Assembly (NCBI RefSeq): GCF_015910445.1
Contig: NZ_CP048882.1
Span: forward strand, 4,526,001-4,590,000
Length of the DNA: 64,000 nt
Direction of reading: 5' to 3'
From: Streptomyces bathyalis
Lineage (GTDB): Bacteria > Actinomycetota > Actinomycetes > Streptomycetales > Streptomycetaceae
A model generated the notes under the pieces. The model saw only the letters and a program-made list of their open reading frames with translations, ran no database searches and had not been told where the DNA came from. Within the stretch, counting starts at the first letter, position 1; the number at the start of each line of letters is the position of its first letter. Positions 3,525 through 60,384 of the stretch are shown here, one piece after another. The translations under genes were made by a program, and so were the position numbers.

Positions 3525-5638
3525 GTCGGCTCGTTCCCTTCGGATGCACCGGCGCCTGGGTCACCGGAGCCTGGGTCACCGGAGTCTGGGTCACCGGAGC
3601 CCCCGGCGCCGCCGGTCTCGCTCGGGTTGCCCATGCGGTCCGTGCTGGCTGAACTGCCTGTGCCGGGTGCGTCGTTCGTGGTGGCTGTGGTGGCTGTGGT
3701 GGCTGTGGTGGCCGTGGTGGCCGGAGCGGTCGCGCTGCGTGTGCGGCGCGCGCTGGTCGTGGAGCTCGTGTCGCCCGTACCGTTCCCGGTGCTCGTCTCG
3801 TCCGCACCGATCGTGCCGGTCCTGGTGCTCGTGTCGTCCGCACCGATCGTGCCGGTCGCGTCGTCCGTGCCGGTCGCGTCGGCGGTGTCGGGCTTGTCGG
3901 CGGTGCCGCCGGTCCCGGTGCTCGTCTTCTCGGCGTTGCTCGCGCCACTGGCCTCGCCCGTGGTGCTCGCCCTTCCTGAAGCGCCTGCCTCGTCCGTAGT
4001 GCCCAACTTGTCTGCGGCGGGCGGTCGTTCGGGCTCCCCAGGGTCATCCGTTCGGGCCGGCCGCACCGCCCGCGCGGACCCGCTCCCGGGCCTCTCCTCG
4101 GGAGAGCTGTCCGCACCCGGGCCACCCGGTGCGCCCGGCGGAACCGTTCCTGCGGCTGCACGTCCGGAGGCTGTGCCCTTCTGGAACGCGGACCAGCGCT
4201 CGGCGCTCTCCTCGGGAGAAGGCGGTGCGAGTGCCCCGCCGGTCTGCGAGCCGAGGAACAGATTGCCCACGGCGGGCTCACCGCCTCCGCTGCCGCCGGC
4301 ACCCGCGGCGTTCGCCTTCTCCTGCGCATCCGGACGGTGCCGCCTGCGACGGCGCGGCAGTTCCTGCGCCCCTGCCCGGCGCGGAGCCCCGGGACCGTCC
4401 GTGCCGGCACCCGCACTCGCACCCGCACTCGCGTCTGCCGCCGCCGGTGAACCCGCCGTCGTCGGGCCCGCCGTCGGTGTCCCCGTCGATGCGGGGGAGC
4501 GGTCATCCGTGGCCGCACGCTCAGCAACTGCGGGCGCCCTGTGCGGGGGTGAGGGAGCCATCACCGACATCGGATGTTCCGCCTCGTCGAGCAGCGTGAG
4601 CAGGGGCTCGCCGGGGAGGTGCACGACGGCACGTACGCCCCCGTACGGCGACGCCTCCACGTGCGCGCTGAACCCGTACTGGCGGACGAGCTGCCCGATC
4701 GCGGCGAAGCCGTTGCGCGGAGGGTCGCCGAGCTCCGTGACGAGGATCGCCTCGTCGCCCGAGATCAGCCGCTTGGCGCGGGCGAATTCCTCGGCGTTCA
4801 TGCCGACGCCCGAGTCGTCGATGATCACGGACACTCCGCGGTCGCCCTGCTGGAGCGTGACGACGACGGGCAGTTCCGGGTGGGAGTGGTGGAGGGCGTT
4901 GGCCATGAGCTCGGTGAGCGTCACGGCGACCGGTTCGACCGCGCGCGCGATGACGCCGACCGGGTCGCGCAGCAGGTTGCTGATCTGGACGCGCTCGTAC
5001 CCGCTGAGCCTGGACGAGGCACCGACGACGATGTCCGCGAGGTGTGAGTCCTCCCGCGTCAGGCCCGGCCACGCCCCGCACACCACGGCGGTCGACTGGA
5101 TGCGGCGCAGCGCCTGTTCGTTGAGGAAGTCGGCAGCGAGCAGGTCCTCGGCGACGAGCGGGTCGTCGTACTTCTCCTGCATCCGCCGGAGGAGGGTCTG
5201 GAGCTGGTAGAGGAGCGCCTGGATGCTTGTGGTGGAGCCGCGCATGGCTGCCTGGGCGGCGGCGTCGACACGGTTGCGTTCCTTCGTGACCTCCTCGCGC
5301 ACCTGGGCGAGGACGGCGTCGATGGACCGGTCCAGCTCGGGGCTGAGCGTCGCGGTCCCGAGGGGGCCGGGGACGGGGACGTGGGAGTGGGCGAGTGAGG
5401 TGGCCAGGCCGGGGATGCGGGCTTCGACGAGATGTCTGAGTTCGGCCTCGACGGCCCTGAGTCTCGCCCCGAGGTCGGCGGCGTACCGTGACGCGCCCTC
5501 GAGTTCCGTCGCGGTCGCTTCTGCGTGCAGTTGCGATCTGCTCAGCTCCTGTCGCGAGCGGACGAGAAGCAGCGCCAGAACGACGGCGACCGTGCCCAGG
5601 GCGAGGAACACGATCAGCACCACCGGCGTGTCGGTCAT
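3521..5638 (-). CDS. Histidine-kinase-like sensor ATPase, conservon component CvnA
   Basis: The start at 5638 puts an AAGGA motif just upstream and gives 705 residues. One N-terminal membrane helix (VVLIVFLALGTVAVVLALLLV) is followed by a coiled, Arg/Glu-rich linker and a DHp-like region. An HATPase domain follows at about 220-330, with N-box ELMANALHHSHP and G-box DDSGVGM. The last ~300 residues are low-complexity, rich in Ala, Thr, Gly, Asp and Pro, with runs such as TTATTATTATT and SGDP repeats. These match 15-bp DNA repeats near 3551-3605 and GTGGCT repeats near 3680-3720. CvnA proteins are membrane kinases that head four-gene conservons and recruit the other Cvn proteins. This locus retains cvnA, cvnB and cvnC but has lost cvnD and most of cvnE. 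The disordered tail is unusually long. Confidence 0.85.
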   Translation of the reverse strand: MTDTPVVLIVFLALGTVAVVLALLLVRSRQELSRSQLHAEATATELEGASRYAADLGARLRAVEAELRHLVEARIPGLATSLAHSHVPVPGPLGTATLSPELDRSIDAVLAQVREEVTKERNRVDAAAQAAMRGSTTSIQALLYQLQTLLRRMQEKYDDPLVAEDLLAADFLNEQALRRIQSTAVVCGAWPGLTREDSHLADIVVGASSRLSGYERVQISNLLRDPVGVIARAVEPVAVTLTELMANALHHSHPELPVVVTLQQGDRGVSVIIDDSGVGMNAEEFARAKRLISGDEAILVTELGDPPRNGFAAIGQLVRQYGFSAHVEASPYGGVRAVVHLPGEPLLTLLDEAEHPMSVMAPSPPHRAPAVAERAATDDRSPASTGTPTAGPTTAGSPAAADASAGASAGAGTDGPGAPRRAGAQELPRRRRRHRPDAQEKANAAGAGGSGGGEPAVGNLFLGSQTGGALAPPSPEESAERWSAFQKGTASGRAAAGTVPPGAPGGPGADSSPEERPGSGSARAVRPARTDDPGEPERPPAADKLGTTDEAGASGRASTTGEASGASNAEKTSTGTGGTADKPDTADATGTDDATGTIGADDTSTRTGTIGADETSTGNGTGDTSSTTSARRTRSATAPATTATTATTATTATTNDAPGTGSSASTDRMGNPSETGGAGGSGDPDSGDPGSGDPGAGASEGNEPT

Positions 5639-5956
5639 CGGCGTCCTTGGTCGACTGGATTGCTGTGATCGATGTTGAGGACGAGCCCGGGGGAGCGAAC
5701 TGCGCCCAGGAGCACCGGCCCATCGGCACTCATCGCCCGGCGGTCCCCACATGCTGCCGCAGACCAATCGCGTGCACACCCGTAACGGGAACATCTGTAC
5801 ACATCGGCTGATCGCATTCCGCCTGCAGGCGGGGAGAGTTCGGGCGCAGCCCGCCGTAACCCCGATTCGGGCGTGATGAGTTCCCCCTGTGGCGACGCGT
5901 CAGCGGCCGGAGAGGGCCCCTGAGTTGCTACAGCCGTCGGGCGGCGGCCCGTTGCC
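5639..5956. promoter_or_regulatory. Intergenic region upstream of the decayed conservon, with two palindromes
   Basis: No gene is visible in these 318 bases. Two short palindromes lie upstream of the conservon kinase: CCCGTAACGGG at 5779-5789 and CCGCCTGCAGGCGG at 5819-5832. The second is a perfect 14-bp dyad and could be an operator or the stem of a small hairpin. The region also holds the 3' flank of the PHP-domain gene, which reads in the same direction, so any promoter here serves the conservon. No convincing -35/-10 pair was found. Confidence 0.3.
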
Positions 5957-8366: not shown

Positions 8367-10967
8367 ATGACTTCGAACGCGCAGGCAGCTCCCACCGCCA
8401 ACGCAATGCGGCGCGCTCTCCGGCGCGCCCGCGACGGCGTGACGCTCGACGCCGCCGAAGCCGCTGTCCTGCTCCAGGCCCGCGGTGACGACCTCACCGA
8501 ACTCGCACGCTCCGCGGCCCGCGTCCGGGACGCCGGGCTGGAAGCGGCGGGCCGTCCCGGAGTGATCACGTACTCCCGCGGGGTCTTCATCCCGCTCACC
8601 CGGCTGTGCCGGGACAAGTGCCACTACTGCACGTTCGTCACCGTCCCCGGCAAGCTGCGCCGCGACGGCCACGGGATGTTCCTCTCGCCGGACGAGGTGC
8701 TCGACATCGCACGCCGAGGTGCCGAAACGGGCTGCAAGGAAGCCCTCTTCACGCTCGGCGACAAGCCGGAGGACCGCTGGCCGGAAGCCCGCGAGTGGCT
8801 GGAGTCGCACGGTTACGACGACACGCTCTCGTACGTACGGGCCATGGCGATCCGCGTCCTGGAGGAGACCGGCCTGCTGCCGCACCTCAACCCCGGGGTG
8901 CTCTCCTGGTCCGACTTCCAGCGCCTCAAGCCCGTCTCGCCGTCCATGGGCATGATGCTGGAGACCACCGCCGAGCGGCTGTGGAGCGAGCCCGGCGGTC
9001 CCCACCACGGTTCCCCGGACAAGGAGCCGGCTGTGCGGCTGCGCGTCCTGGAGGACGCAGGGCGCTCCAACGTCCCTTTCACCACAGGGCTGTTGATCGG
9101 GATCGGCGAGACGTACGAGGAGCGGGCCGAGTCACTGTTCTCGCTGCGCCGCATCCAGCGGGCGTACCACGGAATCCAGGAACTCATCATGCAGAACTTC
9201 CGCGCGAAGCCGGACACGGCGATGCGCGGAATGCCCGACGCCGAACTCGAGGAACTGGCCGCGACGATCGCCGTCGCACGCCACATCATGGGTCCCTCGG
9301 CGCGGATCCAGGCGCCGCCGAACCTCGTCGACGGCGAGTACGCGATGCTCATCGACGCGGGCATCGACGACTGGGGAGGCGTCTCTCCCCTCACCCGGGA
9401 CCACGTCAACCCCGAGCGCCCCTGGCCGCAGATCGACGACCTGGCGGAGCGCACCGCGGCCTCCGGCTTCGTGCTGCGTGAACGGCTCCCGATCTACCCG
9501 GAGTTCATCAAGCGCGGCGAACCCTGGCTCGACCCGCGGCTGCTGCCGCACGTCGACGCGCTCGCCGAGCCGGAGACGGGCCTGGCACGCGAGGACGCCC
9601 CCGTCGAGGGCCGCCCCTGGCAGGAACCCGACGAGGGATACCTCGCCCCCTCCGGGCGCACCGACCTGCACCGCACCATCGACACCGACGGGCGCACCAC
9701 CGACAGGCGCGACGACTTCGACGAGGTCTACGGCGACTGGGACTCCCTGCGCGAGGCCGCACGCCCGGGAATGGCACCCGAGCGCATCGACACGGACGTG
9801 CGCGCGGCCCTGTCCACGGCCGCCGCCGACCCGACCCGCCTCACCGACGACGAGGCGCTCGCGCTGATGCACGCCGACGGACCGGCCCTGGACACCCTGT
9901 GCGGCATCGCCGACGAGCTGCGCCGCGACGTCGTCGGCGACGACGTGACGTACATCGTCACGCGCAACATCAACTTCACCAACGTCTGCTACACGGGCTG
10001 CCGTTTCTGCGCGTTCGCCCAGCGCCGCACCGACGCCGACGCCTACACGCTCTCCCTCGACCAGGTCGCCGACCGCGCCCAGCAGGCGTGGGACGTGGGC
10101 GCGGTGGAGGTCTGCATGCAGGGCGGCATCCACCCGGACCTGCCCGGCACGGCGTACTTCGACATCGCCCGCGCCGTGAGGGAGCGCGTGCCCGGGATGC
10201 ACGTGCACGCCTTCTCACCGATGGAGGTCGTCAACGGCGCCAGCCGCACGGGCCTTTCGATCCGCGAGTGGCTGCTGCAGGCGCGGGAGGCCGGCCTCGG
10301 GTCCGTGCCCGGCACCGCCGCGGAGATCCTCGACGACGAGGTCCGCTGGATCCTCACCAAGGGCAAGCTGCCCGCCGACACATGGGCCGAAGTCATCGAG
10401 ACGGCACACGAGTTGGGCATCCGCTCGTCCTCGACGATGATGTACGGGCACGTCGACCAGCCCCGCCACTGGGTCGCCCATCTGCGCAGGCTCGCCGGGA
10501 TCCAGCGGTCCGCGCTCGCGAAGGGCGCCGAGGGCTTCACCGAGTTCGTCACGCTGCCCTTCATCCACACCAACGCGCCGGTCTATCTGGCGGGCATCGC
10601 CCGGCCCGGCCCCACGACCCGTGACAACCGTGCCGTGACGGCGATGGCGAGGCTGCTGCTGCACCCGTACATCCCCAACATCCAGACGAGCTGGGTCAAG
10701 CTCGGCACCGAGGGCGCGGCGGAGATGCTCCGCTCGGGCGCCAACGATCTCGGCGGCACGCTGATGGAGGAGACGATCTCCCGCATGGCCGGCTCCTCCT
10801 ACGGCTCGTACCGCTCCATCAAGGACCTCGTCGCGATCGCCGAGGCCGCGGGCCGCCCCGCCCGCGCCCGTACGACGCTGTACGGTCGGGTGCCGGCGGA
10901 GCGACTGGAGGCCGCCCGGCGTTCCGACGGGCACCTTCCGGAGCTCCTCCCGGTGTTGGAAAAGTGA
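8367..10967 (+). CDS. fbiC: FO synthase, bifunctional CofG/CofH radical SAM enzyme for cofactor F420
   Basis: The 866-residue protein holds two radical SAM cores. The CofG half has its [4Fe-4S] motif C81xxxC85xxC88 (LCRDKCHYC). The CofH half has a second CxxxCxxC (VCYTGCRFC) near residue 541. Together they couple 5-amino-6-ribitylaminouracil with tyrosine to make FO, the deazaflavin chromophore of F420. Actinobacteria carry this fused form (FbiC), while archaea use two proteins. Length matches the family. The ATG at 8367 lacks a strong ribosome site but sits at the conserved N-terminus. The gene appears monocistronic. F420 made by this route may serve the PPOX-type oxidoreductase at 57.5 kb, though no direct link is visible. 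Confidence 0.95.
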
Positions 10968-49343: not shown

Positions 49344-51134
49344 GTGTTGCCGTATCACTCGGGGCGGGCTCTCAACTTCCTTCTGCCTGAGCTTCCCACT
49401 CAGGGTGACGGCATCTACACTGACGCCGCGTCAACCGGCTCCACTTCTCCTCGATATGTGAAAGTTGCGGTCAACCTATTGAGTACCGAATCTTTAACAG
49501 ACCGGACAGGGTTCAGACGCCAGACGGTGTGGCCCGCCGCGCTTTTACTTGCGGCTGTCGCGGTCATCGCGCAGATGGTCAGCTGGTGGACGCGGTCCCC
49601 CGCGGTAATGGCGAGCGGTTCGGTCGCGGTCGTCGGACTGCTGGCGTGCCTGCCGCACCTGTGGCGGATGCACCGCGAGGACATACGCCATGCCGATCGC
49701 TGCGCGGAGCAGGCCGAGCAGGCACAGCGCGCCGCCGACCGCCAGGTCAGCTCGGAGAGGGCGCGCCTGACGGAACAGTGGCAGACCTGGTCGCAGTCGC
49801 AGTTCGAGGCCTTCCACGAGTCCCTTGAGCAGTGGTGCCGCGACCTGCACATCGTGCTCACGGAGCGGCGCAAGCCCGACTCCCCCCTCCCCAACCTGAG
49901 CCCCCAGACGGCGAAGCTGCTCAACGGCGCGCTCGAAGAGGTGGACGAGGAGCTCATCGACGTCCAGGACGCCTGTGAGCACGCGATCGTCTTCCTCGCC
50001 CAGCGGCTCCAGACGGGCGGTCTGCAGATCCAGGAGAAGGCCGGCGCCCTCATCGACCGGCCCGAGCCCGGACTGCCCGAACTCGGCATCGAGATCGACC
50101 ACTTGGCGACGACGTTCGCCCACCACGCGCAGAGCCTGCGCATCCTCGGCGGTTCGTGGACGGGCCAGCAGTGGCAGGAGACGGTTCCCCTCACGGACAT
50201 CGTCCGCGCCGCCGGCGGTCAGATCACCGACTACCAGCGCGTGGTGATCGGCGGCGAACCCGACCTGGGCGTCAAGGACTTCGCGGCCGAATGGCTCATC
50301 CACCTCGTCGCGGAGATCCTCGGGAACGCGACGACCTACAGCCCCAGCAGCAAGGAGGTCACCGCACAGCTGGAGGCAGTTCCCTCGGGAGCGGTCATCC
50401 AGATCGACGACCGCGGTACGGGTATGACGGAGGCCCGGCTCCAGAAGGCCCTCGAACTCGTCGCCGGCCCGCGCGACGTCAGCATCCGCGACCTGCAGAC
50501 CCCGCAGGTCGGCCTGGCCGTGGTCGGCAACATCGCACGCCGGCTGAAGCTCAGGGTGAGCCTGGGACGTTCGCCGTACGGAGGCATCCGCGCCGTCGTA
50601 CTCGTGCCCATGGACCTCCTCGAAGCAATCGACCCGGTGTACACGATGCCCGTCCCCGAAGGTGCCGCCGGCCCCGAGGCCGAAGAACACAAGGCAGAGC
50701 CCGCCGAACGTGCTGAGCGGCGGGAGAACCCCCTCCCGGTGCGCACCCGTCCGCAGGAGACCGCCCCGGCTAGCACGCCGGCCCCGGCTCCCGAGCCTGC
50801 TTCCGCGTTCGACCCGGAGCGGTCCACTTCCGCGTTCGCCACGGAGCGGTCCACTTCCACGTTCGACCCGCAGCGGACCGCTTCCGCGTTCGCCAGGGGA
50901 CGGTCGGAGAGCACCGAACCCTCGTCCGGTTCGGAACCCCCTGCCGTGGGGCTGCCGCGGCGACGCTCGCCCCGTCACACACAGACGGCCGGTCCCGTCG
51001 AAGCAGAACAGCACAGCGTCGGCAGCGATGAGGACCCGGAAGCCGCCGCTTCCTTCATGAGCTCCTTCGTGCTGGGGGGCCGGGCCTCGACCGATGATGA
51101 AACCGATTCACCCCAGGGGGACGACGACCGATGA
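49344..51134 (+). CDS. Histidine-kinase-like sensor ATPase, conservon component CvnA, with TTA codons
   Basis: The start is uncertain: GTG at 49344 gives 596 residues, a GTG at 49458 is possible, and neither has a good ribosome site. Two membrane helices (WPAALLLAAVAVIAQMVSWW and VMASGSVAVVGLLACLPHLW) lie near the N-terminus. A helical linker, an HATPase region (LVAEILGNATTYSPSSKEV, IDDRGTGMTEARL) and a disordered C-terminal tail with SAFDPERS-like repeats follow. CvnA heads the conservon and forms a membrane complex with CvnB-D. TTA leucine codons occur in frame at 49494-49496 and 49545-49547. The second lies inside the first membrane helix and is almost certainly translated, so the gene should need the bldA tRNA. 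It overlaps cvnB by four bases. Confidence 0.88.
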   Translation: MLPYHSGRALNFLLPELPTQGDGIYTDAASTGSTSPRYVKVAVNLLSTESLTDRTGFRRQTVWPAALLLAAVAVIAQMVSWWTRSPAVMASGSVAVVGLLACLPHLWRMHREDIRHADRCAEQAEQAQRAADRQVSSERARLTEQWQTWSQSQFEAFHESLEQWCRDLHIVLTERRKPDSPLPNLSPQTAKLLNGALEEVDEELIDVQDACEHAIVFLAQRLQTGGLQIQEKAGALIDRPEPGLPELGIEIDHLATTFAHHAQSLRILGGSWTGQQWQETVPLTDIVRAAGGQITDYQRVVIGGEPDLGVKDFAAEWLIHLVAEILGNATTYSPSSKEVTAQLEAVPSGAVIQIDDRGTGMTEARLQKALELVAGPRDVSIRDLQTPQVGLAVVGNIARRLKLRVSLGRSPYGGIRAVVLVPMDLLEAIDPVYTMPVPEGAAGPEAEEHKAEPAERAERRENPLPVRTRPQETAPASTPAPAPEPASAFDPERSTSAFATERSTSTFDPQRTASAFARGRSESTEPSSGSEPPAVGLPRRRSPRHTQTAGPVEAEQHSVGSDEDPEAAASFMSSFVLGGRASTDDETDSPQGDDDR

Positions 51135-51535
51135 GTCACGAAGCAGCCGCTCACGACCAGTCCTGGATGCTCAGTGACGTAGCTGATGTCCCCGGTGTGC
51201 AGCACGCCGTGGTCCTCAGCGCCGACGGGCTGGTCCGCGCCCGTACGAACGATCTGGGCATCGACGAGGCCGACACGCTTGCCGCGGCGGCGGCCGGACT
51301 GCAGTCGCTGGGCGTCAGCCTGGCGGGCCGCTTCGGCGAAGGCGGGCTGAAGCAGCACATGGTCGAGTGGAAAGGCGGCTTCCTCTTCCTGCGCGGAGCA
51401 GGGGACGGGTCCCGCCTCGCGGTGATCACCAGCAACAAGGTCGATCCCGGAGTGATCGCCTCCCAGATGGTGCTCCAGGTGCAGCGGTTCGGCGACCACC
51501 AGGGCAGCCCGCCGAGGAGGCGCTCAGTCACGTGA
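51131..51535 (+). CDS. Roadblock/LC7 protein, conservon component CvnB
   Basis: 134 residues with the Roadblock signature: MLSDVADVPGVQHAVVLSADGLVRARTND at the start, LAAAAAGLQSLGVSLAGRFGEGG in the helix, and VDPGVIASQMVLQVQRFGDH at the end. It should dimerise and bridge the CvnA kinase to the CvnD GTPase, in the way roadblock proteins regulate small GTPases elsewhere. The ATG overlaps cvnA (ATGA) and its end overlaps cvnC (GTGA), so the whole set is translated in step. Confidence 0.9.
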   Translation: MSHEAAAHDQSWMLSDVADVPGVQHAVVLSADGLVRARTNDLGIDEADTLAAAAAGLQSLGVSLAGRFGEGGLKQHMVEWKGGFLFLRGAGDGSRLAVITSNKVDPGVIASQMVLQVQRFGDHQGSPPRRRSVT

Positions 51536-51900
51536 CCCGACCGAGAGGACCGAAAAGGGGACCCGTGCGCCCCTACGTGCTGACCGGAGGGCGGGCTCGG
51601 CCTCGTCAACGGCTCGCAATCGAGACTCTGTTGGAGACCGTCGACCCCGAGGGCACCGAACTCCCGGTGACTGCCAGCAGGCAGGAACGGATGCTGTGGC
51701 GGATGTGCCGCCACAGACTCTCCGTGGCGGAGTCCGCAGCGCACCTGGGCCTGTCGGTCAGCGTCGTCACGATCCTCGCCTGCGACCTGATCGATGCCGG
51801 CTACCTGACCACACGTTCGCAGGTCCCAAAGGCGCAGCTTCCCGACGTGCACATACTCCAAGAGGTACTGGATGGACTCCGCAGACAACTCAGCGCCTGA
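51532..51900 (+). CDS. DUF742 protein, conservon component CvnC
   Basis: The GTG at 51532 overlaps the cvnB stop by four bases. The 122-residue protein has the DUF742 core: VRPYVLTGGRARPRQRLAIETLL, then MLWRMCRHRLSVAESAAHLGLSVSVVTILACDLIDAGYL and ILQEVLDGLRRQL. The middle is a winged-helix-like unit. In conservons CvnC is one of the cytoplasmic proteins recruited to CvnA. The reading overlaps the GTPase gene by 29 bases. It is orthologous in design to the protein at 2722, but here the rest of the set is intact. Confidence 0.9.
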   Translation: MTRPRGPKRGPVRPYVLTGGRARPRQRLAIETLLETVDPEGTELPVTASRQERMLWRMCRHRLSVAESAAHLGLSVSVVTILACDLIDAGYLTTRSQVPKAQLPDVHILQEVLDGLRRQLSA

Positions 51901-52480
51901 GAGGCGCTATCTGGCACCGACAGTCGACCAGGCGCTGAAGATCCTCGTCGTCGGCTCCTTCGGGGTCGGCAAGACGACGCTCGTGGGGAGCGTCAGCGAG
52001 ATCGATCCGCTGCGCACCGAGGAGACCATCACCCAGGCCAGCACGGGCGTGGACGACCTCTCCGGACTGTCGGGGAAGACCGCCACGACCGTGGCCATGG
52101 ATTTCGGGCGCATCACGCTCAACTCCCGGATGGTGCTGTACCTCTTCGGCACGCCGGGCCAGCGTCGCTTCTGGGACCTGTGGGAGGGGCTGGTCATCGG
52201 ATCGATCGGCCTGCTCGTCGTCATCGACACGAGAAGGATCGAGGACAGCTTCGAGATCCTCGACCAACTCGACGTGCGCAGCCTCCCGTTCGCCGTCGCC
52301 ATCAACCAGTTCCCGGACTCGGTGCGCTACGACGAGGCGGATCTGCGCGAGGCCCTCGACCTGCTTCCGGAGACCCCGCTCGTCCACATCGACGCCCGTA
52401 ACCGCCATTCCTCGACGCAGGCGCTGATCAGCCTCGTCGAGTACGCCGCCCGCATCAAAGCTCAGGAGAAGGTTGCGTGA
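51872..52480 (+). CDS. Ras-like GTPase, conservon component CvnD
   Basis: The 202-residue protein has a P-loop GFSFGVGKTTL-type sequence (VVGSFGVGKTTLVG) near residue 26. A switch region follows (TTVAMDFGRITL), then FGTPGQRRFWDLWEGL as the G3-like motif (GTPG in place of DTAG). AINQFPDS stands where the G4 NKxD motif would be expected (Gln instead of Lys). These are hallmarks of the MglA-/CvnD-like actinobacterial GTPases. CvnD binds GTP and links the CvnA-B-C complex to output. Its start lies inside cvnC and its end overlaps the P450 gene by four bases. This is the component missing from the decayed locus at 2-5 kb. Confidence 0.92.
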   Translation: MDSADNSAPERRYLAPTVDQALKILVVGSFGVGKTTLVGSVSEIDPLRTEETITQASTGVDDLSGLSGKTATTVAMDFGRITLNSRMVLYLFGTPGQRRFWDLWEGLVIGSIGLLVVIDTRRIEDSFEILDQLDVRSLPFAVAINQFPDSVRYDEADLREALDLLPETPLVHIDARNRHSSTQALISLVEYAARIKAQEKVA

Positions 52481-53754
52481 CCACACCGGCACCGACGCGT
52501 CCTTTCGACTCCGAGACGCTCGTCTCGCTCACGGACATCACCCAGTCCAGAGACCCGCACCGCATCTACCACCAACTCCGGCTGCAGTACGGCCCGGTGG
52601 CGCCCGTTCTGCTGGAGCCGGGAGTGCCCGGGTGGCTCGTGATGGGTCTGGAGCAGCTGCGCATCATCACCGAGCGCGAGGCGCTCTTCTCGCGTGACGC
52701 GCGCAACTGGCGGGACCTCAACGACGGCATCGTCTCGCCCGACTCGGGACTGCTGCCGATGATGGCCTACCGGCCCAACGTCATCGGCGCCGACCAGCAG
52801 GAGCACCGGCGTCTGCGCCAGCCCCTGGACGACGGAGTCGGACGCATCAACCACCGCGCGCTGCGCCGCCAGGTGCAGCGCATCTGCAAGGAACTCATCA
52901 ACACCTTCGCCCAGTTCGGCAGGGCCGACCTCGTCGCCGACTACGCCGCGTACGTCCCGATGCTGGCCGTCGCGAGCCTCTTCGGCCTGGACACACGCCA
53001 GGGCCACGAGCTGCGTGCCGCGCTGATCGCGCTGTTCAGCAGCCAGACGGACTCGCAGGTCGGCAACCGAAGCTTCGAGCAGATCCTGTTCGACACCCTG
53101 CGGGAGCGGCAGCAGAACCCCACCGAGGATCTGACGACCGCCCTGATGAACCACCCGAACCTTCAGGACGACCCCGAGGTTCTCCAGTCCATGGTGGTGA
53201 TGATCTCCGCCGGGAACGAGACCACGACCTGCTGGATCGCGCACACCCTCTACCGGATGATCACGGACACCTCGTTCGACGACCGTCTGCGAAGCGGCCA
53301 GCTCGGCGTGGACGACGCGCTCGACGAGGTGCTGTGGCGCGAACCGCCGATGACGCACATGCCCGCGCGCTACGCGCTGCGCGACATCGAACTGGGCGGC
53401 CAGTCCATCCGCCACGGCGACGTGCTCATCCTCGGGCTCTCCGCCGCGAATTCGGACCCGGCACTCGCGCCGGGCGGGCAGCGTCCGCCCAACAACCGTG
53501 CGCACATGGCCTATTCGGCCGGACCGCACATGTGCCCGGCGCAGGACACCTCACGCGTGATCACCCGTACGGCCGTGGACACCGCGCTGCACCTGCTGCC
53601 CGGACTGCGGCTGACCGTGACGCCCGGCGAGATCACCTGGAACCCCTCGCCCTGGACACGCTGCCCGACACAACTGCCCGTCGCGTTCGCCGTTCCCCAC
53701 GAGATCCGCACCCCGCCCGCATCCGCCGCTCGTCCCATTGGAGAGACCGTATGA
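52477..53754 (+). CDS. CYP157-type cytochrome P450 lacking EXXR (conservon CvnE)
   Basis: The 425-residue protein is a P450: I-helix AGNETTTCWIAH near 245, and heme-ligand C353 in YSAGPHMCPAQ. The K-helix EXXR motif, considered almost invariant in P450s, is replaced by E284VLW287. A Pro replaces a Gly next to the ligand loop. Loss of EXXR is the published trademark of the CYP157 family. CYP157 genes are typically paired with CYP154 genes in Streptomyces conservons, exactly as here. The start overlaps cvnD by four bases. Whether this protein binds heme normally and what it oxidises is not known from sequence. It may be a partner or regulator of the CYP154 that follows. Confidence 0.88.
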   Translation: MTTPAPTRPFDSETLVSLTDITQSRDPHRIYHQLRLQYGPVAPVLLEPGVPGWLVMGLEQLRIITEREALFSRDARNWRDLNDGIVSPDSGLLPMMAYRPNVIGADQQEHRRLRQPLDDGVGRINHRALRRQVQRICKELINTFAQFGRADLVADYAAYVPMLAVASLFGLDTRQGHELRAALIALFSSQTDSQVGNRSFEQILFDTLRERQQNPTEDLTTALMNHPNLQDDPEVLQSMVVMISAGNETTTCWIAHTLYRMITDTSFDDRLRSGQLGVDDALDEVLWREPPMTHMPARYALRDIELGGQSIRHGDVLILGLSAANSDPALAPGGQRPPNNRAHMAYSAGPHMCPAQDTSRVITRTAVDTALHLLPGLRLTVTPGEITWNPSPWTRCPTQLPVAFAVPHEIRTPPASAARPIGETV

Positions 53755-55007
53755 CGGCCGACCAGGCATCACCCACATCAGGCGTACCCGTCCTGGAACT
53801 GGACCCCCACGGCCGCGACCACATGGGAGAGGCCGCGAGACTCCGCGGGCTGGGACCGGTGGTGCGCGTCAGGCTGCCGGGTGATGTGGAGGCGTGGAGC
53901 GTCACACGCCACCAGCTGCTCAACGAGCTGGTGATGGACCCGCGCATCTCCAAGGACTGGCACAACTGGGGCGCCATGCAGCGCGGCGAGATCCCCGACG
54001 ACTGGCCGCTGATCGGCATGGTCAAGGTCACCAACATGGTCACCGCCGACGGTGCCGAGCACCGCCGGCTGCGCAAGCTCGTGAGCCAGACCTTCACGGC
54101 ACGCCGCGTGGAGGAACTGCGGCCCACGACCTCCGAGATCGTCGAGAACCTGCTGCAGGCGCTGCCGTCGCACGCGGACCCCGACGGCACCGTCGACCTG
54201 CGCAAGCACTTCGCCTACCCGGTGCCCATGCAGGTCATCAGCGACCTCTTCGGCATCCCGGACCACGAACGGCCGGAGCTGCGCGAGGCCGTGGACAAGA
54301 TCTTCCGTTCCGACCTGTCCCCCGAGGTGGTCGGCGCGAACCAGATCGCCGTCTACCAGCTGCTGGCCCGCGTCGTCGAACTGCGGGGCAAGGAGCGGGG
54401 GGACGACCTCACCAGCGCCCTGATCTCCGCACGGGAGGCCGAGCCGGACGCGCTGACGCAGGAGGAACTCGTCGGCACGCTCCTCGTGATGCTCTCGGCG
54501 GGCCACGAGACCACGCTCAGCCTCATCGTCAACGCCGTACGGGCCCTGCTCACGCACCCGGACCAACTCGCCCTCACCAGGGGCGAGGAGGACATGTGGC
54601 CCGCGGTCGTCGAGGAGACGCTGCGGTGGGAGGCGCCCATCGGCAACTTCCCCTTCCGTTACGCGACGGAGGACATCGAGGTCGCGGGCGTCACCATCCC
54701 GGCGGGCGACCCGATCATGGCCCCTTACAGCGCGGTCGGCAGGGACCCGCAGCAGCACGGCCCGGACGCGGACTCTTTCGACATCAGCCGCGAACAGGCA
54801 CGGCACCTCTCGTTCGGTCATGGCGTGCACGCGTGTCTGGGTGCACCGCTCGCCCGGCTGGAGGCCACCATCGCGCTGCGTGAACTCTTCGCGCGCTACC
54901 CGGACATGATCCTCGGAGCCGTGCCCGGCACCCTCGAGCCGGTGCCGTCGATGTTCTCCAACAGCGTCACGACGCTGCCCGTACGGCTCGGCAGGCCCGC
55001 CGGGTAG
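53751..55007 (+). CDS. CYP154-type cytochrome P450
   Basis: 418 residues with all canonical P450 elements: AGHETT 250-255 (I-helix), E289TLR292 (EXXR), and FGHGVHACLGAPLARLEA with C362. The start overlaps the CYP157 stop by four bases (ATGA). CYP154 enzymes hydroxylate macrolides, steroids or small aromatics in studied cases. Here the natural substrate is likely a product of the conservon-linked pathway, possibly the terpenoid made by the fusion enzyme at 55230, which is inference. A hairpin at 55021 closes the operon, so the next gene needs its own promoter. Confidence 0.9.
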   Translation: MTADQASPTSGVPVLELDPHGRDHMGEAARLRGLGPVVRVRLPGDVEAWSVTRHQLLNELVMDPRISKDWHNWGAMQRGEIPDDWPLIGMVKVTNMVTADGAEHRRLRKLVSQTFTARRVEELRPTTSEIVENLLQALPSHADPDGTVDLRKHFAYPVPMQVISDLFGIPDHERPELREAVDKIFRSDLSPEVVGANQIAVYQLLARVVELRGKERGDDLTSALISAREAEPDALTQEELVGTLLVMLSAGHETTLSLIVNAVRALLTHPDQLALTRGEEDMWPAVVEETLRWEAPIGNFPFRYATEDIEVAGVTIPAGDPIMAPYSAVGRDPQQHGPDADSFDISREQARHLSFGHGVHACLGAPLARLEATIALRELFARYPDMILGAVPGTLEPVPSMFSNSVTTLPVRLGRPAG

Positions 55008-55020
55008 CCGCGCCGGTAGC

Positions 55021-55052
55021 AGGGACGGCGGGGGACCAGCCACGCCGTCCCT
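55021..55052 (+). terminator. Terminator of the conservon-P450 operon
   Basis: Perfect 10-bp arms AGGGACGGCG (55021-55030) and CGCCGTCCCT (55043-55052) lie 13 bases after the CYP154 stop. They mark the end of the six-gene operon and leave ~175 bp for a promoter of the downstream fusion gene. Confidence 0.65.
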
Positions 55053-55229
55053 CCCTCGGGCCGTCCGCCCGGGGGCGACTGTGGGGCCGCTCCAGCCGGC
55101 CCGGACCGTACGGGGAGGGGGAGCAGGGGCACGTCGCGCATCTGCCCCACGTACGGACCGAACACGCACGTCCGCACGCAGCAGCTGCCCGAAGCACCAC
55201 CGAGGTTCTTCACGGAAGGCGCGACGACC

Positions 55230-57407
55230 ATGCTCGACGGACAGGAGTACCCGAAGCCGGAGGCATCCTCCGGAGGTCTGCCGGGTCAGGGCCCCGCGGC
55301 ACGCTCCGGACCGCCCCGCATAGCCAGGACCGGGACAGGTCCCGGAACCCGGGCCGCGACCCGGACCCGGACCCGCCCCCGCGAGGAGACGGAGACCGAG
55401 ACCCGCAAGGCCGCGCGGCAACACCTCGAGGACTGGCTGGATTTACGCTACGGGGACCCGCTGGCCGAGCAGCACCGTTGGGCCCTGCTGCCGCCCGGCA
55501 AGCTGCTCCGCCCCGTGCTCCTGCTGGAGTCCGCGGCGGCCGTGGGCGGCAGCACGGAGCAAGTCGAGCCCGTGGCAACGGGGTTCGAGCTGATGCACGC
55601 AGGCAGCCTCATACACGACGACATCATCGACGGGGACGAGCTGCGCCGAGGGCGCGCGGCGATCCACCGCCGCTTCGGCGCCGACCGGGCCATCGTCGGT
55701 GCCGACGCCCTCTTCTTCGCCGTCTTCGAGACCCTCGGAGAGTGCCGCAGGCGCGGTGTCCCAGACCGTCTGATCACAGAGGCGACGGCCGTCATCGCCG
55801 AAGCCGGACTGGAGATCACCCGAGGGGCCACGATGGAGCTGGACCTCAGCGGCACCCTCCACGACGACATCGACACGTACATGGAAGTGGCGCGGCTGAA
55901 GACGGCTGCCCTGCTGCGCGCGGCATGCCGCACCGGTGCCGTACTCGCAGGGGCGACGGCCGAACAGACCGCCGCGCTCACTGAGTTCGGGGAGGCGCTC
56001 GGGATCGCCTTCCAGATACAGGACGACCTGCTGCCGTACGCTCCGCTGCCCCGCGGTACGGGAGGGGACGACGGTGTGGCGGGCAAGTCGCGCACCAGCG
56101 ATCTGCGCAACGGACGCCCCGTACTGCCGCACCTGCTCGCCCACCGTCACGGCAGCGACGCCGACCGCGCGCTCCTGGCCGAACTCCTCGACGGAGGCAC
56201 GGACGAGGAGCTTCGGCAGGACCGGCTGCATCGGCTCCTGGACAAGACGGGGGCGTTGAGGGCCGCGCAGCAGGCCGCCGATTCGCATCTGGACCGCTGC
56301 CGCAGGGCGCTCAAAGTGCTGCCGCCCAGCCCGCACCGTCACCGCCTCGCCGAGCTGGCCGACCAGTACACCAGCCGGGCCAGACCCGTGACGGTCGCGC
56401 ACGCGTCCGCGAGCACGAGGACGGGGGAGGCAAGAGCCGGGGTGCCGGCGAAGGAGAAGCCGGCGGGGGACGGGCCAGTGCCGGAGGCGCCCCGAGAGAC
56501 ACCGGTCGGCGAGAAGAAGGGGGCCGTCACCGCCCTGCGCCGGCTCCCCGGCCACGTGTGGCGCGAGATCTTCATCAGCTACCGCTTCAACAGCAACGAC
56601 CTGTGGTCGACCGTCGTGCCGGCCTCCTGCTTCGTCGTCGCCGCGGTGAGGAGCGCGGGGCTCGGGGCGTACGCTGCCGCCCTCACCGTCGCGGGGGCCG
56701 TGCTCTACTTCTGGCTCTTCATCTACGGATCGAGCCTCATCAACCAGATCACCGGTGTGGAGGAGGACCGGCTCAACAAGCCCTTCCGTCCTCTGGTCAC
56801 CGGCGACAGCACCATGCGCGGGGCGAAGCGCCGCCTGGCCGCCGTCCACGTTCTCTTCCCCGCCGTCGGTCTTCTCCTGGGCGTGGTGGAGTGGGCCCTG
56901 CTGTGGCAGCTGCTGTTCATGCTCCACTACGCGTGGGGAGGGCACCGGCACTGGTTCGCCAAGAACCTCCTGATCGCGCTCGGCGTCGTCTCCCAGCTCG
57001 CCTCCGCCTGGGAGATGGTCACGCCCATCACCACCGCCGCGTGGCACTGGATATTCACGATGGCCGCCATGACGTTCCTGATCATCGGCGTCCAGGACCT
57101 GCGGGACGTGGAAGGCGACCGGACGCTGGACCGGCGCACCATGCCGATCGTCCTCGGCGACCTTCCTTGCCGCATCTACTTCGCTGTGAGCTTCGTGGCG
57201 CTGCTTCCCGTCACGCACTTCGTGATGGTGGCACCCGCCGGTTTCCATTGGTGGACGGCTGCCATCGACGCAGCACTGGCCGGCTTGAGCCTCCTGCTGG
57301 CCGCCCGCGTACTGCTGTTGCGCACACCCGCACAGGACCACCGCACGCAGCGGTTCGTGGAGTGGTGGTACACCTTCGTCCTCGGCACCGCCGTCGTGCT
57401 GCTGTGA
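55230..57407 (+). CDS. Polyprenyl diphosphate synthase fused to UbiA-family prenyltransferase/terpene cyclase, with TTA codon
   Basis: The 725-residue protein joins two enzymes. Residues ~60-385 are an all-trans polyprenyl synthase: KLLRPVLLL, first Asp-rich motif D130DIID134 in LIHDDIIDGDELRRGR, and second motif D265DLLP269 in FQIQDDLLPYA, whose fifth Asp is Pro. KSRTSDLRNGRPVLP follows. After a Pro/Ala linker, residues ~440-725 form a UbiA membrane protein with ~8 helices, N505QITGVEED513RLNKP and D623LRDVEGD630. The first motif has Gly where ordinary UbiA enzymes have Asp and continues EEDRLNKPFRP, which resembles UbiA-type terpene cyclases. One polypeptide could thus make a prenyl diphosphate and cyclise or transfer it. 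Codon 72 (55443-55445) is TTA, predicting bldA dependence. Confidence 0.85.
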   Translation: MLDGQEYPKPEASSGGLPGQGPAARSGPPRIARTGTGPGTRAATRTRTRPREETETETRKAARQHLEDWLDLRYGDPLAEQHRWALLPPGKLLRPVLLLESAAAVGGSTEQVEPVATGFELMHAGSLIHDDIIDGDELRRGRAAIHRRFGADRAIVGADALFFAVFETLGECRRRGVPDRLITEATAVIAEAGLEITRGATMELDLSGTLHDDIDTYMEVARLKTAALLRAACRTGAVLAGATAEQTAALTEFGEALGIAFQIQDDLLPYAPLPRGTGGDDGVAGKSRTSDLRNGRPVLPHLLAHRHGSDADRALLAELLDGGTDEELRQDRLHRLLDKTGALRAAQQAADSHLDRCRRALKVLPPSPHRHRLAELADQYTSRARPVTVAHASASTRTGEARAGVPAKEKPAGDGPVPEAPRETPVGEKKGAVTALRRLPGHVWREIFISYRFNSNDLWSTVVPASCFVVAAVRSAGLGAYAAALTVAGAVLYFWLFIYGSSLINQITGVEEDRLNKPFRPLVTGDSTMRGAKRRLAAVHVLFPAVGLLLGVVEWALLWQLLFMLHYAWGGHRHWFAKNLLIALGVVSQLASAWEMVTPITTAAWHWIFTMAAMTFLIIGVQDLRDVEGDRTLDRRTMPIVLGDLPCRIYFAVSFVALLPVTHFVMVAPAGFHWWTAAIDAALAGLSLLLAARVLLLRTPAQDHRTQRFVEWWYTFVLGTAVVLL

Positions 57408-57520: not shown

Positions 57521-58003
57521 ATGTCGAAACCACCGCTTCCCGACGACGCAGTGGCAGTGCTGGAGAAGGCCAACCCGGCCGTCATCACGACTCTGCGATC
57601 CGACGGCCAGCCGGTGTCCACGGCGACCTGGTACCTGTGGGAGAAGGGCCGGGTCCTGGTCAACATGGACGAGGCCCGCAAGCGGCTGGAGCACATGCGC
57701 AACGACCCCCGCGTCACCCTCACCGTGCTCGACGAGGGCAACTGGTACACGCATGTGAGCCTCATCGGCCGCGTCGCGGAATTCCGCGACGACGAGGGTC
57801 TGGCCGACATCGACCGGCTCGCGCACCGCTACCTCGGCAAGCAGTATCCGCAACGGGACCGGGGCAGGGTCAGTGCCTGGATCGAGATCGACCGGTGGCA
57901 CGGGTGGGGCTCGGCCAAGGACAGCGGCCAGGCGGGTGACGGGGCACGGCCGCCCGCCCCGGCCGGCCCTTCCGGCGGCCGTTCCTGCCCCGGTCCTCCG
58001 TGA
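57521..58003 (+). CDS. PPOX-class F420/FMN-dependent oxidoreductase
   Basis: 160 residues. A split-barrel flavin/deazaflavin fold of the pyridoxamine-phosphate oxidase class is indicated by NPAVITTLRSDGQPVSTATWYLWEKGRVLVN, DEARKRLEHMRNDPRVTLTVLD and YTHVSLIGRVAEFRDDE. The actinobacterial branch of this class is commonly F420-dependent and reduces enones, quinones or other conjugated systems. F420 synthesis is available from fbiC at 8.4 kb. Coming 113 bp after the prenyl-UbiA fusion in the same direction, it may act on that product. A TIGR03618-like assignment is plausible but unproven. The C-terminal ~25 residues are a Pro/Gly tail. Confidence 0.8.
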   Translation: MSKPPLPDDAVAVLEKANPAVITTLRSDGQPVSTATWYLWEKGRVLVNMDEARKRLEHMRNDPRVTLTVLDEGNWYTHVSLIGRVAEFRDDEGLADIDRLAHRYLGKQYPQRDRGRVSAWIEIDRWHGWGSAKDSGQAGDGARPPAPAGPSGGRSCPGPP

Positions 58004-58045: not shown

Positions 58046-58243
58046 TCAGTCCTCGGTGAGGGAGAGCGCCTGGCTGGGACAGGTTCCGACCGCCTCCCGC
58101 ACCCCGTCCAGCCCGCCCTCGGCGGGCCTTTCGACCAGGACGAGGACGGTGCCGTCCTCCTCGTCCTGGTCGAACACCGAGGGCTCGCTGAGCACGCACT
58201 GGCCGGCGCCGACGCAACGCGTGGTGTCCGCGACGATGCGCAT
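58046..58243 (-). CDS. [3Fe-4S] ferredoxin, redox partner of the adjacent P450
   Basis: 65 residues. The cluster ligands CVGAGQC (C-x5-C) and TCPSQAL fit actinobacterial 3Fe-4S ferredoxins such as those paired with CYP105 enzymes. Acidic patches (FDQDEEDGTVLVLVER) are also typical. It is encoded 36 bp after the P450 gene at 58280 on the same strand, so it should pass electrons from a ferredoxin reductase (not in view) to that P450. GAGAAGCG upstream of the ATG is a fair ribosome site. Confidence 0.9.
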   Translation of the reverse strand: MRIVADTTRCVGAGQCVLSEPSVFDQDEEDGTVLVLVERPAEGGLDGVREAVGTCPSQALSLTED

Positions 58244-58279
58244 CGCTTCTCCTTGTCCTTGTGCCGCTTCGGGCAAGCG

Positions 58280-59485
58280 CTACCAGGTGACCGGGAGTTC
58301 GTAGAGGCCGTAGATGTTGCTGTCGTCCTTGAAGGGCAGTTCGTCGACGGGTGCGGCGAGGCGCAGTCCCGGAACGCGCCGGAACAAGGTCTCGAAGACC
58401 ATCTCCAGCTCCATCCGCGCCAGGTTCTGGCCGAGGCACTGGTGAGCGCCGAACCCGAAGGCCACGTGGTGCCTGTCACCGCGCCCGATGTCGAGTTCGC
58501 CGGGACGGGAGAAGACGCCGGGGTCGTGGTTCGCGGAGTTGCCGAGCCCGACGACTCCCTCGCCGGCCCGGATGAGGACCCCGCCGATCTCGACGTCCTC
58601 GGTCGCCACCCGGGAGGTCACGGCGTCAACGATGCTGAAGTAGCGCAGCAGTTCCTCGACGGCTTCCGGCATCGCGTCGGGGTCCTCGCCGAGCCTGCTC
58701 CGCTCACCGGGGTGTTCCAGGAGGGCGAGCGTGCCCAGCGAGATCATGTTCGCCGTCGTCTCGTGCCCCGCGATGAGAAGGAGCACGGCGAGGCTCACCA
58801 GGTCCTCGTGGTCGCCCCTGCCCGTCTCCCGCTGCTTGAGTACCTGCCTGCCGAGCAGGTCGTCGCTCGGGTCCTTCTCCTTCTGCGTGACCAACGCGTC
58901 GAGGTACGTGCGGAGTTCGTCGCGAGCCTGCTCGCGCGAGGCCACCGGCTCGGTGCGGCGCAGAAGCCGTGCCGACCGCGACTGGAAGAAGTCGTGATCG
59001 GCGTACGGCACCCCGAGCAACTCGCAGATGACCAGGGAGGGAACCGGCAGCGACAGCGACCGGACGAGGTCGGCCGGACGGGGTCCCGCCAGCAGGGCGT
59101 CGACGTGCTCGTCCACGATCTGCTGGATGCGCGGCCGAAGCGCCGCCATCCGCTTGACGGTGAACTCGCCGACCACCGCCCGGCGGGCGGGCCCGTGCTC
59201 CGGCGGGTCCATCGAGATCAGCGACAGCTTGAACCGTGCGGCGAGTTGCTGCTGCCCCTCGGCGAGCACGGGGAAGCCGGGACGGGTGCGGTCCGCGCTG
59301 AAACGCGGGTCGGCGAGCATCGCCCGTACGTCCTCGTGCCGGGTCAGCGCCCACGCCGTGCGGCCCCCGGGCAGGCCGACGCGGGAGACCGGTGAGTTCT
59401 CGCGCATCCGCTCGTACTCCGCGGGCGGTGAGAACGGGCACGTGCGGGGGACGGGCAGTGTCACCGTGGGCTGATCGCTCGTCAT
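58280..59485 (-). CDS. CYP105-like cytochrome P450
   Basis: 401 residues. I-helix AGHETTANM at 239-247, EXXR as E278LLR281, and the heme loop FGFGAHQCLGQNLARMELE with C350 are all present. The N-terminus TCPFSPPAEYERMRENSPVSRVGLPGG is typical of CYP105, a Streptomyces family used in xenobiotic and secondary metabolism. It forms an operon with the ferredoxin gene downstream and is divergent from a TetR gene, with a dyad between them. This suggests substrate- or ligand-induced expression. It may belong to the adjacent terpenoid locus or be independent. Confidence 0.9.
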   Translation of the reverse strand: MTSDQPTVTLPVPRTCPFSPPAEYERMRENSPVSRVGLPGGRTAWALTRHEDVRAMLADPRFSADRTRPGFPVLAEGQQQLAARFKLSLISMDPPEHGPARRAVVGEFTVKRMAALRPRIQQIVDEHVDALLAGPRPADLVRSLSLPVPSLVICELLGVPYADHDFFQSRSARLLRRTEPVASREQARDELRTYLDALVTQKEKDPSDDLLGRQVLKQRETGRGDHEDLVSLAVLLLIAGHETTANMISLGTLALLEHPGERSRLGEDPDAMPEAVEELLRYFSIVDAVTSRVATEDVEIGGVLIRAGEGVVGLGNSANHDPGVFSRPGELDIGRGDRHHVAFGFGAHQCLGQNLARMELEMVFETLFRRVPGLRLAAPVDELPFKDDSNIYGLYELPVTW

Positions 59486-59554
59486 GGGACCCCAATCAGG
59501 GACGCGGTTTTCACGTGGCGGATCTTCAGCGGCGCGCGGTTTCACGGTAGTTAA

Positions 59555-59573
59555 GTGGATGATTTTCGTCCAC
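59555..59573. promoter_or_regulatory. Candidate TetR operator between P450 and TetR genes
   Basis: GTGGATGA TTT TCGTCCAC is a 19-bp dyad with one mismatch per arm pair. It lies midway in the 134-bp gap between the divergent P450 (start 59485) and TetR (start 59620) genes, where a self-regulating TetR would bind. Locally A/T-richer sequence surrounds it. Confidence 0.5.
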
Positions 59574-59619
59574 ATGGCGGGGTGAAAGAATCAGCCAACT
59601 TCCTTGGAAAGGCGGGGAC

Positions 59620-60384
59620 ATGGCGGCCGGCTCCAGCTCCAGCTCCGGGTCAGCGACGGATTCCGTGCCCGGTTCCGTGACAGGTTCCGCGAGGGGCGCC
59701 GGAACCGGTGCCGACGCGGATGCCGTGAGCGGGTCCGGAACCCCGCTGCGGGCCGACGCGCTGCGCAACCGCCGGAAGATCCTCGCCGCCGCCAAGGAGA
59801 TGTTCGCCGTCCGCGGGCCCGACGTGCCGATGGAGGACGTCGCCCGCCGCGCGGCCGTCGGCGTCGCCACGCTCTACCGGCGCTTCCCCGACCGGGAGAC
59901 GCTGATCCGCGCTGTCGCCAGGGACACCTTCGCCCGTGTGCTGGAGGAGTCCCGCGCCGCCGTCGCCGAGGAACCGGGGGCATGGGAGGCGCTCGTACGG
60001 ATGCTGCGCAGCTCACGGGAGCTTCAGCTGAGTGTCCAGCTCGCCGTCCACTCCCAACTGGCCCGCGACACCATCCGGGACGATCCCGGGACGGGCCGCT
60101 TCCGCGACGAACTGCTCGGCGTGCTCGACCGGGTGGTGAAGGCGGCCCAGGAGGAGGGGACGCTGCGCGGCGACATCGGCACCGGCGACGTCGCCGCCCT
60201 GCTCTCGCTCCTGCTGCGCCGTACTCCCGACCCGCCCGACGGCTCCGCCGGCGTCGCCGCGGAGCGTGCGATGGGGCTCATGCTCGACGGCCTGCGCGCC
60301 CGCCCCGGCAACACGTCCCTGCCCGGGGACCCGCTGTCCGTGGGCGACTTCGACGAGCAGGAGAAGAGGAACCTCCGGCGCTGA
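59620..60384 (+). CDS. TetR-family transcriptional regulator
   Basis: 254 residues. The HTH is DALRNRRKILAAAKEMFAVRG, DVPMEDVARRAAVGVATLYRRFPDRETLI near residues 48-95. The ~45 residues before it are a Ser/Gly/Ala/Asp-rich tail with a repetitive look (SSSSSGSATDS). The true start could therefore be later, but no better ribosome site than GGAAAGGCGGGGAC was found. The C-terminal part (WEALVRMLRSSRELQLSVQLAVHSQL, LLGVLDRVVKAAQEEG) is a typical ligand-binding bundle. It is divergent from the P450-ferredoxin operon with a candidate operator between, so it is probably its repressor. Confidence 0.88.
   Translation: MAAGSSSSSGSATDSVPGSVTGSARGAGTGADADAVSGSGTPLRADALRNRRKILAAAKEMFAVRGPDVPMEDVARRAAVGVATLYRRFPDRETLIRAVARDTFARVLEESRAAVAEEPGAWEALVRMLRSSRELQLSVQLAVHSQLARDTIRDDPGTGRFRDELLGVLDRVVKAAQEEGTLRGDIGTGDVAALLSLLLRRTPDPPDGSAGVAAERAMGLMLDGLRARPGNTSLPGDPLSVGDFDEQEKRNLRR

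Follow-up and report, generated by a model that had tools for sequence, protein, structure and literature searches.

A conservon with two P450 genes adjoins a likely terpene operon in Streptomyces bathyalis and three related genomes

The locus

The genome sequence of Streptomyces bathyalis is a single contig of 7.38 Mb. The window considered here, by which we mean the whole stretch of 64,000 nucleotides from position 4,526,001 to 4,590,000, contains a conservon, or actinobacterial G-protein system (AGPS), followed on the same strand by two cytochrome P450 genes, a gene for an isoprenyl diphosphate synthase fused to a UbiA-type protein, and a gene for a PPOX-class oxidoreductase. An earlier note on this DNA had listed cvnABCD and a CYP157/CYP154 pair as one overlapping chain, followed by the fusion gene and the PPOX gene, and the genes, their order, strand and overlaps and the Pfam domains all agree with that description. 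The arrangement of conservon and UbiA gene is common to four related genomes, those of the window, HNM0575 (G241), G397 and G481. We consider it reasonably probable that these genes make up two adjacent and separately transcribed modules, a conservon with accessory P450s and a terpene operon. The features are, in window coordinates:

49479–51134 (+): cvnA, histidine-kinase-like (Pfam HATPase_c); start inferred from G481 and HNM0575, with GTG 49527 as an alternative
51131–51535 (+): cvnB, Roadblock/LC7 (Pfam, 8.8e-20)
51532–51900 (+): cvnC, DUF742 (Pfam, 2.4e-29)
51872–52480 (+): cvnD, small GTPase (Pfam ATP_bind_1, 3e-28; NCBIfam small_GTP below cut-off)
52477–53754 (+): CYP157-like P450, CvnE-type accessory (Pfam p450, 6.5e-07; motif EVLW and heme Cys)
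53751–55007 (+): CYP154-like P450 (Pfam p450, 5.3e-36; ETLR; heme motif FGHGVHACLG)
55021–55075 (+): two tandem hairpins, no T-tract, between the P450 genes and the fusion gene (fold of -43.8 kcal/mol)
55100–55229 (+): conserved stretch 5' of the fusion gene, candidate promoter or 5' untranslated region (alignment of G241, G397 and G481)
55230–57407 (+): isoprenyl diphosphate synthase-UbiA fusion with a low-complexity linker (Pfam polyprenyl_synt and UbiA)
57521–58003 (+): PPOX-class F420-dependent oxidoreductase (Pfam PNPOx; TIGR03618 at 94.1 bits, cut-off 79.05)

The HATPase, roadblock, DUF742 and GTPase genes stand in that order by Pfam, which is the order of a conservon. The overlaps are 4 bp for cvnA/cvnB, 4 bp for cvnB/cvnC, 29 bp for cvnC/cvnD, and 4 bp each for cvnD/CYP157 and CYP157/CYP154. 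The start of cvnA had been placed at 49344, probably too far 5'. The cvnA of G481 has as its first start in frame a TTG equivalent to window position 49479, and in HNM0575 the frame shifts just 5' of the equivalent position; both point to a start at about 49479. The host genome has 11 matches to DUF742 (cvnC), and this locus is therefore one of about eleven conservons. A second one is present in the window at 2722–5794 on the reverse strand, about 44 kb away, where cvnA, cvnB and cvnC were recognized by Pfam.

The conservon and its P450 genes

No NIT sensor domain was matched in CvnA by Pfam at E 0.001. Hydropathy places two nearly adjacent hydrophobic segments at residues 60–84 and 85–107 of the 596-residue open reading frame (ORF). 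CvnA thus fits the P450-accompanied class, which is NIT-less. As far as the accessible parts of the papers cited in this text go, the accessory proteins CvnE (a P450) and CvnF (a GAF protein) go with NIT-less CvnA, CvnF8 stimulates CvnA8, and an AlphaFold model has CvnE11 placed against the ATPase domains of CvnA11; the role of the P450 accessory proteins is given there as unknown (PMC13343842). The locus shares with the CvnE-type AGPS the cvnA–D order, the NIT-less CvnA and a P450 gene directly 3'. It differs in having a second, CYP154-like P450 in the overlapping chain and a terpene operon adjoining it.

The names CYP157 and CYP154 follow the earlier note and the motifs rather than an identity above 40% to named family members. 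The K-helix of the CYP157-like protein reads EVLW, so that the Arg of ExxR is absent, and the heme Cys is retained in GPHMCPA. An E-x-LW pattern is visible in 10 of 13 CYP157-like rows and was missed in three, and the heme Cys is present in all 13. CYP157 proteins have been described as having no ExxR and as being genetically linked to upstream conservons (PMC3599690). In the CYP154-like P450 both the ExxR (ETLR, from the translation) and the heme motif are intact.

Is this P450 pair part of the conservon or part of the terpene operon? A search for the CYP157-like protein at E 1e-150, with at most 4 candidates scored per genome, found a close relative in 12 of 392 Streptomyces genomes, and terpene genes accompany it in three (window, G241 and G397). 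No synthase or UbiA match was found at E 1e-6 in the fetched stretches (7.6–20 kb) of the other nine. These unlinked cassettes, with CYP157 identities of 59–75%, all contain cvnB–D and CYP157. Eight of the nine have a cvnA match and eight a CYP154 match, one of these a fragment; both are missing from G036, whose contig is only 7.6 kb long. Ten downstream translations from six of the nine, judged by eye, are unrelated to terpene genes and resemble cytochrome oxidase subunits, adenosine-deaminase-like, sortase-like and methyltransferase proteins, among others. Since the cassette is found without terpene genes, we assign the pair of P450s to the conservon.

The nearest unlinked cassette is that of G051 (CYP157 75%). 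It is nearest by CYP157 (0.75, against 0.62 to the outgroups) and not by CvnD (0.70, against 0.74), as if its P450 and core genes had different histories (L150). Mean identities were compared between the linked clade and six outgroups, with G031 and G036 left out and no significance test. For CvnD, the linked clade and G051 are about equally far from the outgroups (0.737 and 0.743).

The synthase-UbiA protein and the PPOX enzyme

The isoprenyl diphosphate synthase domain spans residues ~60–385 of the fusion protein (Pfam polyprenyl_synt, 6.4e-51), and the closest PDB sequence to it is 9v4g, a 'prenyltransferase'. In the translation the first Asp-rich motif is DDIID, which agrees with DDxxD. 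The second is DDLLP, which does not, and 9v4g has DDLMA at this place. By chain-length rules for such enzymes, the small residues G and S at five and four positions ahead of the first Asp-rich motif point to a prenyl diphosphate of C20 or longer as the product. The best NCBIfam match is the Family 2 encapsulin cargo prenyltransferase (NF041169), an assignment that was rejected at 206 bits against a curated cut-off of 450.

The UbiA-type domain spans residues ~435–725 and has the motifs NQITGVEED and QDLRDVEGD. Among 20 loci with a UbiA relative, the window included, NxxxG/AxxxD is present in 18, the exceptions being a truncated gene (L129) and one in pieces (L105). The second motif is present in all 20, as QDxxDxxxD in 16 and EDxxDxxxD in four. 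By contrast, two of the host's four other UbiA genes encode NDWLDREQD (L138) and VDRDID (L136); the motifs of the other two were not read with certainty. The first motif of aromatic prenyltransferases, NDxxDxxxD, is likewise not that of the UbiA half, which has NQxxGxxED. The UbiA-type terpene synthases Fma-TC, EriG and Tps1A, which are fungal, have the signature NxxxGxxxD plus QDxxDxxxD (PMC9835599). Such enzymes are also already known in Streptomyces, because StsC of S. somaliensis has been recorded as a UbiA-superfamily sesterterpene synthase that converts geranylfarnesyl diphosphate (GFPP) to somaliensenes (PMC7693059). The UbiA half is probably a terpene cyclase, because its motifs match or nearly match this signature. 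It resembles Fma-TC, EriG, Tps1A and StsC in family and in these motifs, which are taken from the first of the two papers. It differs from them in its in-frame fusion with a synthase and in having a predicted activity.

The UbiA half might instead be an ordinary prenyltransferase that leads to a meroterpenoid or a lipid. This is a separate question, compatible with every reading of the locus given below, and we think it rather unlikely. In its favour, the only PDB sequence relative found for this half is a digeranylgeranylglyceryl phosphate synthase, and its NCBIfam matches are prenyltransferases, all far below cut-off. Against it, the first motif NQITGVEED has neither the second- nor the fifth-position D of NDxxDxxxD and follows the pattern of UbiA-type terpene synthases. 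In addition, no aromatic-acceptor gene was noticed among the flanking genes put to Pfam, although no search was aimed at one. The UbiA domain, modelled with AlphaFold from two sequences, had a predicted local distance difference test score (pLDDT) of 42.7 and a predicted template modelling score (pTM) of 0.28, and the model was not used.

In all four linked genomes the PPOX gene adjoins UbiA. Elsewhere in the window, a gene at 8367–10967 has radical S-adenosylmethionine and CofH C-terminal domains by Pfam, in a host with an F420-type PPOX gene beside a terpene gene. This domain pair recalls FbiC of F420 biosynthesis.

Among the four linked genomes, the whole fusion is present only in the window. 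In HNM0575 (L006/L123) and G397 (L124) the synthase and UbiA are two genes with a 4-bp ATGA overlap, and the best pieces of these synthase orthologues are 79–81% identical. In the closest relative, G481 (L175, 12192–13403), a 403-residue ORF begins with the same N-terminal tail, MLDGQEYP, and continues into UbiA, which is 91% identical to that of the window. The synthase domain is gone, the upstream stretch is kept, and no close synthase copy was found elsewhere in G481, where four matches have 33–39% identity. The fusion seems to be recent, and the synthase attached to it seems dispensable in one species, in a draft genome where assembly loss is possible. We considered whether the fusion is a sequencing error, as a small indel at the 4-bp overlap would explain it. 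The N-terminal tail kept in frame with UbiA in G481 instead favours a real fusion in a common ancestor, with an assembly error in this draft genome possible. Among the best 80 of 585 related loci, only L006 has a listed query range that spans both halves nearly whole; the matches in L072 and L075 extend past the end of the synthase and not through UbiA. No description of a single-chain isoprenyl diphosphate synthase-UbiA cyclase was found in limited literature searches.

Distribution of the UbiA gene

Relatives of the UbiA half were found in six of 101 Streptomyces genomes at E 1e-20, in 18 of 392 at E 1e-25, and in 11 of 293 genomes of the order at E 1e-25. These counts include the genome of the window, and the genome draws overlap. 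The neighbourhoods in the 17 other genomes of the set of 18 were searched with the window proteins at E 1e-6; contig ends are near the UbiA gene in L103, L132 and L135. The UbiA gene is linked to a conservon in three of the 18 (window, G241 and G397), and cvn matches were present nowhere else among the 17. G481, from the order-wide search, is the fourth linked genome. According to the earlier note, its model would fail if the fusion gene were unlinked from the conservon in most relatives. Among the genomes drawn this is the case, as 15 of the 18 have no conservon match in the fetched stretch. Outside this set, UbiA has no conservon link in G495, G014 and G054, the last with a gene in pieces. 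Three synthase relatives without a UbiA match (L106, L107 and L109), which are outside all UbiA counts, have no conservon match either.

A synthase gene is within ~2 kb of UbiA in eight of the 15 unlinked loci (L101, L102, L125–L128, L133 and L135). Chosen neighbours of the unlinked UbiA genes were put to Pfam, and these include P450 genes (L104 and L130), flavin adenine dinucleotide (FAD) enzymes (L103, L131 and L132) and a DXS-LytB protein (L131). A squalene-hopene-cyclase-type gene is directly beside the synthase-UbiA pair in two relatives that are more distant (L125, 12773–14872; L127, 5783–7972). In two other loci (L101, 8854–13914; L102, 9505–14052) phosphomannose-isomerase-like and ATP-binding cassette (ABC) transporter genes are near the pair, with no conservon match.

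The boundary between the modules and the age of the linkage

The hairpins at 55021–55075 fold at -43.8 kcal/mol (z -2.24), and five of 200 shuffled sequences fold as well. G241 and G397 likewise fold strongly 3' of CYP154, in folds made without shuffles. The earlier note had called this a terminator hairpin: the strong tandem hairpins are real, while a T-tract is lacking. The stretch 55100–55229 is well conserved in the alignment of the four genomes, and its place 5' of the fusion gene suggests that this gene has a promoter or leader of its own, perhaps a regulatory one. We take the modules as separate because both the hairpins and the conserved stretch lie between them.

The window is largely collinear with G241 and G397, the two genomes compared, from 20 to 58 kb. 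The shared order is therefore expected by descent and was counted as one event. The two modules probably came together a single time, in one Streptomyces lineage, and have stayed adjacent. On account of this wider collinearity, the argument that conserved linkage strongly indicates function was set aside.

Interpretation of the locus

That the cassette occurs without terpene genes, and synthase-UbiA pairs without a conservon, speaks for two modules. The first would be an ordinary AGPS of the accessory type, with a CvnA that has no extracytoplasmic sensor. The CYP157-like and CYP154-like proteins would be its co-inherited partners, most likely as input or modulator or as makers of an input ligand. 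In the second, the synthase would make a prenyl diphosphate of C20 or longer, the membrane-bound UbiA-type cyclase would ionize and cyclize it, and the F420-dependent PPOX enzyme would probably reduce the product or an intermediate.

Several observations weigh against this interpretation. Scans of the sequence between the modules returned 0 T-tract terminators and no sigma-70 promoter. The cyclase motifs were assigned from a single paper, which deals with fungal enzymes (PMC9835599). P450 genes directly adjoin four other UbiA relatives (L104, L108, L130 and L177). The P450s in the linked clade stand at a slightly greater distance from the outgroups than those of G051 do, at 0.620 against 0.659 for CYP157 and 0.706 against 0.736 for CYP154. 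This divergence gives no clear sign of a functional shift, and the small excess, if anything, favours the earlier note. Finally, the block from 49.4 to 58.0 kb is kept in G241, G397 and, minus the synthase domain, G481, while its flanks vary. The stretches fetched from these three genomes contain no match to the ankyrin-repeat gene at 48.0–48.9 kb, and the ferredoxin-P450-TetR group at 58046–60384 is present in G241 and G481 with no orthologue in 60 kb of G397. Retention of the block amid changing flanks could reflect selection to hold it together.

Does the conservon act on its neighbour? It may locally control the adjoining terpene operon, with P450s that do not act on the terpene, a possibility that we consider rather unlikely. 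Adjacency retained in four genomes and the conserved stretch 5' of the fusion gene are in keeping with such control, and there are precedents. The lanthipeptide cluster next to Cvn8 is repressed by it (PMC13343842), and in indole-prenyltransferase (IptA) clusters a conservon is reported to lie upstream of the prenylindole genes in every case (PMC3617294). What the locus shares with the IptA clusters is a conservon 5' of genes for prenyl chemistry, which in those clusters are sometimes joined by a P450; the locus differs in having a synthase-UbiA protein rather than an IptA-type prenyltransferase. Among the neighbouring genes put to Pfam, no IptA-type prenyltransferase, tryptophanase or flavin monooxygenase (FMO) was noticed, although no search was aimed at them. 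The Cvn8 locus is likewise a conservon beside a biosynthetic locus, but it has the GAF protein CvnF, and its regulation was shown by experiment. Against local control, the four linked genomes are probably one event, and linkage is absent from most of the conservon and UbiA relatives that were examined.

The earlier note went further and treated the genes as one locus, in which CYP157 and CYP154 oxidize what the fusion enzyme makes and the oxidized terpenoid is the output of the conservon or, in a wider form of the model, its ligand. We regard this as improbable. Co-location speaks for it, as do the intact catalytic motifs of the CYP154-like protein and the four UbiA relatives with P450 neighbours. 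However, the pair is also found without terpene genes; nine of the 12 CYP157 genomes have no UbiA or synthase match in the fetched stretch. The P450s beside UbiA elsewhere are distant from those of the window (25–27% identity in partial matches for L104, L108 and L177, and no match at E 1e-6 for L130). The CYP157-like protein is without the ExxR Arg, and hairpins separate the modules. A bolder variant is a G-protein system with its own pathway, in which a terpenoid from the cyclase is oxidized or bound by CYP154/CYP157 and the loaded P450 signals the state of the molecule to CvnA. We believe this to be improbable as well. If true, the conservon would have a ligand pathway that can be identified, and the locus would contain a single-chain synthase-UbiA-cyclase enzyme.

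Conclusions

The interpretation as two adjacent modules keeps part of what the earlier note claimed. A complete conservon with a P450 pair, and a likely terpene operon adjoining it, are kept in four genomes; a single functional locus is not upheld. The statement that no such system had been described is also too strong. The exact combination was not found in literature searches, but conservons have been reported beside IptA and lanthipeptide clusters in the accessible parts of two papers (PMC3617294, PMC13343842). Synteny among four species of a single lineage is not enough on its own to demonstrate a shared function, and caution is needed with similar cases. The likely fused synthase-UbiA cyclase, together with the split and reduced versions in its sister genomes, forms a natural series on the value of fusion for catalysis. 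With a terpene operon touching a conservon that has P450 accessory proteins, a ligand or output could be sought here at little cost.

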